Shown here: positions 17,733-19,757 of the stretch, piece after piece
How positions within the stretch are numbered: position 1 is the stretch's first letter
How the letters are laid out: every line of letters starts with the position of its first letter
DNA from: Gluconacetobacter azotocaptans
Lineage (GTDB): Bacteria > Pseudomonadota > Alphaproteobacteria > Acetobacterales > Acetobacteraceae
Direction: 5' to 3'
DNA length: 36,443 nt
Assembly (NCBI RefSeq): GCF_014174355.1
Contig: NZ_JABEQF010000023.1
Location: forward strand, 1-36,443
The notes under the pieces: model-generated
The model's database searches: none
What the model was told of the DNA's origin: nothing
What the model saw: the letters and a program-made list of their open reading frames with translations, nothing else
Made by a program: the position numbers and the translations under genes

Positions 17733-18008
17733 TTACATGCAAAGAACCTCCAGTTCCTCCAGAAGCAGGAGGGTTTCGGTGTCGTTCAGTTCTTCAAGCA
17801 GATCGCGCAGGGTGGGCAGGAAATTATGCAGAACCCTCAGATCGTCCAGCCCCTGCCTGTGGGAAATGGCCCTCTGCTTCAGGAAATAGGGCCAGAAGGG
17901 ACTCGTCTCCTGATCGAAATGGGGCTGAAGCGCCGCGAAGATACGGTCGGCGCGTTCCTCCCAGTTCAAGTCCTTGAAAGTCAGATAACGATCGAACTGC
18001 TCTGTCAT
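17733..18008 (-). CDS. cowN: N2-fixation sustaining protein CowN
   Basis: CowN is a small cytoplasmic protein that lets Mo-nitrogenase keep working when carbon monoxide, a strong inhibitor, is present. The 91-residue product has the family's start FDRYLTFKDLNWEERADRI, the aromatic SPFWPYFLKQR segment at about 36-46, and the most typical stretch QGLDDLRVLHNFLPTLRDLL near 52-71, then an acidic Leu-rich helix. The length matches CowN (about 90). A longer open frame starts 13 codons earlier, but MTEQFDRY is the family start. The gene diverges from a CooA-like CO sensor with a perfect CTGTCA-N6-TGACAG palindrome between them. A CATTAG -10-like box at 18051-18056 could place transcription start near 18044, with the palindrome at about -38. 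Confidence 0.9.
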   Translation of the reverse strand: MTEQFDRYLTFKDLNWEERADRIFAALQPHFDQETSPFWPYFLKQRAISHRQGLDDLRVLHNFLPTLRDLLEELNDTETLLLLEELEVLCM

Positions 18009-18073
18009 ACTCAACCCCAACTTGCAGGCCTGGTTACATGAGGGCACGTCCTAATGCCTTTCACGGGGCGTGT

Positions 18074-18091
18074 CTGTCAGATGGGTGACAG
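18074..18091. promoter_or_regulatory. Perfect palindrome CTGTCA-N6-TGACAG, candidate CooA-type operator
   Basis: The 6-bp arms CTGTCA (18074-18079) and TGACAG (18086-18091) are exact inverted repeats with a 6-base spacer, the geometry of CRP/FNR sites and close to the TGTCA-N6-CGACA type bound by Rhodospirillum CooA (from memory). Its centre is 74.5 bases upstream of the cowN ATG and 108.5 upstream of the cooA-like ATG. It also satisfies the loose NifA pattern TGT-N10-ACA, but lies close to cowN and no -24/-12 sigma-54 promoter is visible. Confidence 0.7.
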
Positions 18092-18190
18092 TTGGCGGGC
18101 GGTCGTGGATGCCGTGGCTGTAATTGACAGTCTTTTTCGTCTTCCGCGCCATTGCCCGATGGTAGGGCCGCAGCCGGATTGCCGCCCGAC

Positions 18191-18853
18191 ATGATCCCGC
18201 AGCTTCCCCTTCTCGATCTGATCGACAGCGAGGAAGGCGCCGGTCTGCGGCGTATCTTTCATGAGAAACGTCTGGAAAGCGGCAGCCTTCTGCGCGCGCC
18301 GAACGGAGAAGATCAGGTTTTCATCGTAAGATCGGGGCGCATCCGGGTTTATTTCGCCACGCCCGAGCAGGAACTCAGCCTGGGCTATCTGACCGCGACC
18401 GATATGTTCAGCACGCACAGCCGTGCCTTGCTCCAGGCCACGCAGGCGACCGAACTGCTGGTCGCGCGCCGGGATGTGCTGGAGCGCCAGCTTGGCCGCT
18501 ATCCGGCGTTGCAGGCGACGATCGTGCGTGTGCTCGCCATGGTGCTGAGTCAGGCGATGACCTTGATCGAGGATCTGGCCTTCCATCCGGTCAAGCGGCG
18601 GATCGCCCGTTATCTTCTGCGCAGTGCCGCCCGGCACAAGATCCCGGTCGCCGTGGACAGTCTGATCCTGGTTGAACTGAGCATGGAGGAAATCGCGGCA
18701 TTGCTGGGCACGACGCGGCAGACGGCCTCGACCGAACTCAATGCCATGATCCATGCGGGGGGCATTGCCCGGCAGGGACGTCGCCATATCCGCATCTGCG
18801 ATCCGGAGCGCCTTTATCTGTGGGCCGGCGCCGATCATCCGGCGGGCATCTGA
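18191..18853 (+). CDS. cooA: CooA-like CRP/FNR-family CO-sensing regulator
   Basis: CooA is a haem-containing CRP-family activator that binds DNA when CO displaces a haem ligand. This 220-residue protein aligns with Rhodospirillum CooA along its length: GSLLRAPNGEDQVFIVRSGR, LSLGYLTATDMFSTHS, QATELLVARRD, TLIEDLAFHPVKRRIAR, and the helix-turn-helix MEEIAALLGTTRQTASTELN. His76 here aligns with the ferrous-haem ligand His77 of CooA; the ferric ligand Cys75 is replaced by Ser74. The N-terminal amine that supplies the other ligand cannot be judged, as residue 2 is Ile rather than Pro. The ATG at 18191 gives the same N-terminal length as CooA; a TTG at 18152 would add 13 residues. No strong ribosome-binding site is seen. 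It diverges from cowN, its probable target. Confidence 0.75.
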   Translation: MIPQLPLLDLIDSEEGAGLRRIFHEKRLESGSLLRAPNGEDQVFIVRSGRIRVYFATPEQELSLGYLTATDMFSTHSRALLQATQATELLVARRDVLERQLGRYPALQATIVRVLAMVLSQAMTLIEDLAFHPVKRRIARYLLRSAARHKIPVAVDSLILVELSMEEIAALLGTTRQTASTELNAMIHAGGIARQGRRHIRICDPERLYLWAGADHPAGI

Positions 18854-18866
18854 TGTCCTGGCCGCG

Positions 18867-19757
18867 TCAGTCGCGGCCGGGCGGTTCGGCGTCATAGAGG
18901 ATCTGCAGCACGGCGCACCATGGATAGCGGGGGTCGTAGCTGTGGCCGGTGGGGTCGGCCAGACGCCCGTCCGCCCCCACCGGGACGTGGGTCAGCGTCA
19001 CCGCATCGTCGACATTGCCGCCGACGATGCTGATCTGATGGCCGAAGGGCGGCCCGTTCTGGTCGGTGGCCACCACGATTCCGCAATGGGCGGGAAAGCC
19101 GTAGGTGGTGGGCAGGTCGGCGAACTGGACCGCCTTGCTGGCGCCGCGTCCGACACAGATCAGATCGCCCAGCAGGGGGGTATAGGTCGCGGGATCATGC
19201 GCGCGCACGCCGCTTTCGGTACCGGCGGCGGCGGCGTTGATGTAGGTCGAATGGTTGGGGGAATAGGCGAAGCGGTCATTGGCCCCCGCCACCCGCATCA
19301 CATAGGAAATGAAGGCTGCCGACCAGGCATAGAATCCGTCATGCACGTAATCCGTCAGATGTCCGCTCGCGTCGTGCTTGCCCGTCCAGCCGACCTCGGT
19401 CTCCGACGGGTCCTGGCCGATCCACCAATATTCGCCGATGCGCTGCCACAGGCCGGGCGCGCGCTCGGGCTTGACGCTGGCCGAGTGGGCTTCGGGGCGC
19501 AGCTCGGGGTCGTCGTCGTCGACCGGCTGGCCGAACAGCCGCCATTCCCGCAGGGCGATGGCCGCCACGTCCTGCCGGGTGAAGGGTTCGAAATTCCGCG
19601 TGGCGAAGTCGGGCACGTGATCGTCCACCGCCAGCGGCCCCTGTCCGACGGCATATTGCGCCACCGGCGTACGCGTCGGAGGGTGGGAGGAAACAGGCGG
19701 GCTGGCGCAGGCGGCCAGCAACCCCAGAGGCGCCAACGATACGATCTTGCGCGGCAT
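18867..19757 (-). CDS. DUF2272 lipoprotein
   Basis: The 296-residue product begins with a lipoprotein signal (MPRKIVSLAPLGLLAACASPP; lipobox LAAC with Cys at about 18), so it should be lipid-anchored in the envelope. The rest matches DUF2272, a family of CHAP/NlpC-like appearance: IALREWRLFGQ, EYWWIGQD, FYAWSAAFISYVMRVAGA, LLGDLICVGRG and FPAHCGIVV. The spaced Ser/Cys-His pattern (PAHCGIVV) and LIGDLIC-like strand are compatible with a peptidase/amidase fold, but activity is not established. The start at 19757 is fixed by AGGAG seven bases upstream; the longer open frame of 335 codons is not needed. It converges with the cooA-like gene 13 bases away. Confidence 0.85.
   Translation of the reverse strand: MPRKIVSLAPLGLLAACASPPVSSHPPTRTPVAQYAVGQGPLAVDDHVPDFATRNFEPFTRQDVAAIALREWRLFGQPVDDDDPELRPEAHSASVKPERAPGLWQRIGEYWWIGQDPSETEVGWTGKHDASGHLTDYVHDGFYAWSAAFISYVMRVAGANDRFAYSPNHSTYINAAAAGTESGVRAHDPATYTPLLGDLICVGRGASKAVQFADLPTTYGFPAHCGIVVATDQNGPPFGHQISIVGGNVDDAVTLTHVPVGADGRLADPTGHSYDPRYPWCAVLQILYDAEPPGRD

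Follow-up and report, generated by a model that had tools for sequence, protein, structure and literature searches.

What would a carbon monoxide (CO) sensor control in a genome in which we found no CO dehydrogenase? The locus analyzed here raises this question because a cooA-like regulator gene lies beside cowN, which encodes the nitrogenase CO-protection protein, in Gluconacetobacter azotocaptans. The window (the whole stretch of DNA that was analyzed, 36,443 nucleotides) is contig 23 of a 4.13-Mb genome in 57 contigs; the two genes are divergent, with 182 bases between the regulator ATG at 18191 and the ATG of cowN. We propose that the pair is very probably a CO-responsive switch for nitrogenase protection, in which the CooA-like sensor would activate cowN through a palindrome between the genes. 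The features on which this proposal draws are the following.

17733 to 18008, minus strand: cowN, 91 amino acids, nitrogenase CO-protection protein, above the cut-offs of NF033689 and PF20543.

18179 to 18853, plus strand: cooA-like CO sensor/activator; probable start TTG 18179 (MPPDMIPQ..., 224 amino acids), alternative start ATG 18191 (220 amino acids).

18074 to 18091, no strand: CTGTCA-GATGGG-TGACAG palindrome, putative CooA operator, with the core TGTCAGATGGGTGACA at 18075-18090; the unique perfect copy in the genome, identical in G. johannae.

18053 to 18048, minus strand: putative cowN -10 hexamer TAGGAC, at the 21-nt gap found in nine of nine promoters; predicted transcription start about 18041.

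18051 to 18056, minus strand: CATTAG, an earlier -10 candidate at a position that is not conserved in relatives.

18121 to 18165, plus strand: conserved block upstream of cooA, holding TTGACA (18124-18129), near-identical in G. johannae where 18092-18118 has drifted; no clear -10.

The target gene was correctly named in the initial annotation, as profile searches matched 17733-18008 on the minus strand to the CowN equivalog NF033689 with 97.6 bits (cut-off 48) and to Pfam CowN, PF20543, with 75.1 bits (cut-off 27), and it is the sole CowN match in the whole genome. The annotated neighbors of the pair are a PLP enzyme, a rhodanese, a DUF2272 protein and an aldo/keto reductase. In Gluconacetobacter johannae, the nearest named relative found, the two genes are likewise divergent and the regulator is 95% identical to that of the window; the wider neighborhood of the pair also matches in genome G123. 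Antisense to cooA runs a 272-codon open frame (18077-18895, minus strand); its matches in relatives track the cooA matches, and it looks like a by-product of high-G+C coding sequence, not a gene.

The regulator had been described as CooA-like, and comparison with the CooA, RcoM and FNR families places it with CooA rather than with FNR or cAMP-CRP. Among proteins of known structure searched with phmmer, it matched Rhodospirillum rubrum CooA (1ft9, E 1.7e-36) and Carboxydothermus hydrogenoformans CooA (2fmy, 6.2e-33), followed after the CooA chains by an unnamed Crp/Fnr protein (4k8f, 3.5e-18) and a next match at 3.2e-13. In profile searches HTH_Crp_2 was found with 58.4 bits (cut-off 27), and cNMP_binding reached 21.5 bits, below its cut-off of 27.5. 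The best of five AlphaFold models (mean pLDDT 85.0, range of the five 58.4-85.0; pTM 0.77) returned CooA chains as its top four Foldseek matches, with a TM score of 0.83 to 2hkx and 0.52-0.53 to 2fmy and 1ft9. The fold, the heme histidine, the C-helix leucines and the DNA-reading residues are common to the regulator and the CooA proteins of R. rubrum (1ft9) and C. hydrogenoformans (2fmy, 2hkx): in the alignment the regulator keeps the equivalents of R. rubrum His77, Leu116, Leu120, Arg177, Gln178 and Ser181, and the axial heme histidine at position 77 occurs in all 11 CooA rows, the window included, and is Ala in the CRP-type control row. FNR proteins have four cysteines for a 4Fe-4S cluster; the regulator has one in its 224 residues, so an FNR-type cluster is not expected. 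RcoM combines PAS and LytTR domains; the regulator carries HTH_Crp_2, and as no LytTR match occurs anywhere in the genome, no RcoM-type sensor was found there. A class-wide search of 385 genomes with a CooA profile returned, besides the window's own protein, a single match, a CRP-type protein (L044) without the histidine.

Two positions depart from R. rubrum CooA, with Ser in place of Cys75 and Ala in place of Gly117. Position 75 is Ser in eight of nine cowN-linked CooA sequences (window included) and Val in the other (L042). R. rubrum CooA swaps Cys75 for His77 upon reduction, whereas C. hydrogenoformans CooA uses no such switch and is ligated by Ala2 and His82 (PMC6955866). With Ser at this position, redox ligand switching in the regulator cannot match that of R. 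rubrum CooA, and in this respect it is more likely to resemble the C. hydrogenoformans protein. Cys75 is present in both of these CooA proteins, and the window has Ser. The same two substitutions could instead point to a Crp/Fnr protein with a signal different from CO (redox, NO or O2), acting on cowN via the same site; CooA-like proteins with altered sensing do exist, as PgRsp, a relatively close CooA homologue, is a redox sensor (PMC6955866). We consider this reading very unlikely, given that the ligand histidine and leucines 116 and 120 are kept, that the gene paired with it serves CO protection specifically, that C. hydrogenoformans CooA likewise does without the Cys/His switch, and that a single cysteine leaves no FNR-type cluster.

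As the second heme ligand of CooA is the N-terminus (PMC9670170), the choice of start codon matters. The start first assigned, ATG 18191 (Met-Ile-Pro), should probably be replaced by TTG 18179, from which the protein begins Met-Pro-Pro-Asp and aligns gap-free with the Met-Pro-Pro-His of two other cowN-linked sequences (L027 and L028). Relative to G. johannae, the codons from TTG to ATG hold two changes, both silent; 5' of the TTG five codons differ, four of them altering the residue. These codon counts are small, so the TTG start is probable only. The second-ligand residue (Pro2 in R. rubrum) would stand in Met-Pro-Pro or Met-Ile-Pro depending on the start, in a part of the model (residues 1-7) with low confidence.

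Between the divergent genes, the perfect palindrome CTGTCA-N6-TGACAG was indeed found at 18074-18091. Its TGTCA-N6-TGACA core contains the CooA target TGTC-N8-GACA, in keeping with the retained equivalents of the DNA-reading residues R177, Q178 and S181, and the CooA consensus quoted in PMC8047169 is tGTCg-N6-tGACa. A genome scan, which had been suggested as a check, showed that 18075-18090 is the sole perfect TGTCA-N6-TGACA in 4.13 Mb; by window composition the expectation is 0.84 copies genome-wide and about 4e-5 in the 182-base gap. The 36-kb window holds six sites when up to two mismatches are allowed, against 6.36 expected, which is chance level, so the informative features are the perfect match and its location alone. 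Besides the cowN site, the form TGTCR-N6-TGACA occurs once more in the genome, within an unrelated ORF, and it is unenriched genome-wide (1 forward and 2 reverse, versus 3 and 2 for a backwards control). One mismatch in TGTCA-N6-TGACA yields 35 forward matches, the perfect one included, versus 19 for the backwards control, so weaker CooA targets elsewhere in the genome are possible; the surroundings of one of the 34 one-mismatch places were inspected. It is location and conservation, rather than rarity alone, that make the site convincing.

To place the operator relative to its promoter, we compared 15 cowN loci including the window, eight with a neighboring cooA and seven without a detected one. 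The sequence TGTC[A/G]-N6-TGACA was present at all eight cooA-linked loci, starting 68 to 83 bases before cowN, and also at a ninth, on a Rhodobacter plasmid (9/9 in total), and was absent from all seven cowN loci without a detected cooA neighbor (L020, L022, L023, L036, L037, L038 and L039). The range searched for cooA was about 9 kb on each side for L020, L022 and L023 (via L051, L049 and L050) and about 1.5 kb for L036, L037 and L039, with less on one side for L038; the absence at L038 is weak, as only 139 bases lie upstream of its cowN, and the cowN starts of L020 and L036-L039 are approximate. The locus of G123 (L025) was not counted beside that of G. johannae (L002). No LytTR (RcoM-type) domain was found in three genomes that hold cowN without a detected cooA (G258, G076 and G395).

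In all nine cooA-linked promoters a gap of exactly 21 nt separates the site from a downstream -10-like hexamer, whose second base is A and whose sixth is T in seven promoters and C in two. The mean -10 score is +3.6 at a gap of 21 and -3.7 at the next best gap, and none of 2,000 shuffles reached +3.6 at its own best gap. The 21-nt spacing had been seen by eye before scoring, for which the shuffle control allows by taking the best of 23 gaps; the letter weights are approximate, and near-identical locus pairs were averaged to leave six groups. The initial annotation had put the operator at an activating class II position near -38, using CATTAG at 18051-18056 as the -10. The class II spacing stands, with different coordinates: CATTAG is present in the sequence, but its gap of 18 scores a mean of -4.0 against +3.6 for the gap of 21, and with the conserved hexamer TAGGAC (18053-18048) as the predicted -10 the site is centered at -41.5, which is class II geometry.

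The same palindrome fits the pattern TGT-N10-ACA, with no other such match in the 300 bases before cowN or the 350 before cooA, and might accordingly be taken for an upstream activator site of NifA, which, and not the CooA-like protein, would then drive cowN (or the divergent cooA) with sigma-54. For Gluconacetobacter diazotrophicus, Medina et al. (2021, PMC8047169) describe cowN as also NifA-dependent and designate a NifA site that overlaps the CooA site. This reading is nevertheless unlikely for the window. No sigma-54 element (GG-N10-GC) scoring at least 9 of 12 was found in the 110 bases before cowN at any of the nine loci; the top score there, 8, belongs to an element that overlaps the operator, and before cooA the window reaches no more than 7. 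By contrast, a sigma-54 element with a score of 11 precedes nifH of this genome, accompanied some 90 bases upstream by a TGT-N10-ACA of its own. Moreover, the inner TGTC...TGACA letters, for which the NifA pattern has no requirement, are conserved in all nine sites, and the cowN -10 box stands at CRP class II spacing.

The sigma-54 signal lies instead before cooA at some loci. Four of the nine (L024, L026, L027 and L028) have a strong element just before the cooA start, with scores of 11-12; the best scores at the other five are 7 in the window, 9 at -308 in L002, 8 at -204 in L003, 7 in L021 and 8 at -14 in L042. Because of the strong element at cooA in the G. diazotrophicus type, NifA probably acts via cooA there. 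The nine-promoter comparison also makes it doubtful that the overlapping TGT-N10-ACA of G. diazotrophicus is a NifA site. Before the window's cooA no strong sigma-54 element was seen, and the connection from NifA to cooA is not apparent here. The conserved block at 18121-18165 is a possible promoter or leader of cooA. A class II site serving cooA on the plus strand was considered and rejected, as the mirror-position hexamer, CCGTGG, is no -10. Elsewhere, one locus (L021, genome G143) carries a second TGTC-N8-GACA sequence, TGTCGCAAACCCGACA, 92 bases before cooA, which is a possible self-regulation site of CooA there. A genome of the G. diazotrophicus type (G247) has a perfect TGTCA-N6-TGACA (L063 1501-1516; G247:C3:427478-427493) some 40 bases upstream of where nifA (TIGR01817, 578 bits) probably starts; through this site, CooA or NifA could act on nifA. 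The same palindrome letters occur in G215 (G215:C1:1754739), about 6 kb from nifH.

That the pair might be a decayed or accidental neighborhood with no regulatory link is suggested by the divergent layout, which among the nine cooA-linked loci is seen in two species only, this one and G. johannae, and by G247, where no other gene of the window was found near cowN. We regard this as extremely unlikely: neither reading frame is disrupted, G. johannae has the identical operator despite drift in the flanking bases, and nine loci from at least three families share the site and its spacing.

The target of R. rubrum CooA is the set of CO oxidation genes (PMC9670170). In the genus examined here, nifH (over cut-off), cowN and cooA occur in the same four of 14 genomes, and none of the 14, this genome included, has a match to the nickel CO dehydrogenase (cooS) profile or a form I CoxL over cut-off; weaker xanthine-oxidase-family matches to the form I profile occur in all 14. 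The best CoxL-like protein of this genome covers the form I profile in full but, at 474.8 bits, falls short of the 991.15-bit cut-off; it lacks the active-site motifs of both form I and form II CoxL and was rejected as an aerobic CO dehydrogenase. The initial annotation had seen no CO dehydrogenase cluster nearby and judged the sensor to be devoted to nitrogenase protection; finding none in the whole genome (nickel type, or form I over cut-off) agrees with that view, which is the likeliest reading.

The arrangement is known in kind. In Rhodobacter capsulatus, the work of Hoffmann and colleagues from 2014 is said to have shown that CooA activates cowN directly on CO and that mutation of the site abolishes expression, with NifA reportedly controlling cooA. 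Experimental proof of CooA-cowN control has thus reportedly been obtained in that species, whereas for the window the case is built from sequence. The novelty implied at the outset does not hold, since in G. diazotrophicus cooA is already described as adjoining cowN, in an algH-cooA-cowN cluster with a CooA-type site about 60 bases before cowN that overlaps a TGT-N10-ACA (Medina et al. 2021, PMC8047169). There, cowN is raised 30-fold in diazotrophic growth and further with CO; nitrogen-fixing conditions suffice to induce it when CO is absent, and CO fails to do so in the presence of ammonium, so its control in that species does not depend on CO alone (PMC8047169). In Rubrivivax gelatinosus CBS, cooA also adjoins cowN, and two relatives without anaerobic CO oxidation genes also have both (Wawrousek et al. 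2014, PMC4257681); in the excerpted text of that paper the role of the pair is left open and no operator is described, whereas the window has the palindrome. What differs here is the divergent layout, against cooA and cowN in tandem with a sigma-54 promoter at cooA in the G. diazotrophicus type (G215, G247), no sigma-54 promoter being seen at cooA in the window; a CooA 44% identical to its congeneric counterpart; and annotated neighbors that do not include algH, which adjoins the cluster in G. diazotrophicus.

In phylogenetic trees, the window CooA groups with Beijerinckia (support 91/89; 89/87 without L042 and L044) and the window CowN with the G. diazotrophicus type (80/83). We considered whether cooA had been replaced horizontally in this lineage but do not claim it, because a common clade of window-type and G. 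diazotrophicus-type CooA was not rejected (p-AU 0.097) and CowN has only 91 residues. A tblastn search with the window CowN found no plasmid match, though a diverged cowN is annotated beside a CooA match on a Rhodobacter plasmid; that it was missed means that this search is too insensitive.

We infer a mechanism in which a CooA-like dimer would hold heme via the conserved histidine (R. rubrum His77) and a protein N-terminus; CO binding would displace the N-terminal ligand and allow the protein to bind DNA at the palindrome (18074-18091). Bound at -41.5 before the -10 box at 18053-18048, it would activate a sigma-70-type cowN promoter in class II fashion, and CowN would keep Mo-nitrogenase working in CO, with cowN as the sensor's putative main target. 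A known circuit for CO defense would thereby be extended to one more nitrogenase-bearing Gluconacetobacter. Comparison of the nine promoters makes the proposal precise, predicting that the operator is centered at -41.5, that cowN has no sigma-54 element and that the sensor lacks the Cys75 switch. Much more tentatively, and with more doubt than confidence, we suggest that the cowN-linked CooA proteins may be a type that is specialized in protecting nitrogenase and no longer has the Cys75 redox switch, and that in the lineage that includes this genome and G. johannae the sensor gene may be free of direct NifA/sigma-54 control, with a single operator serving both it and cowN, through which it may also regulate itself. 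If true, CO defense in these bacteria would be wired directly to CO, and not through the nitrogen-fixation regulator.
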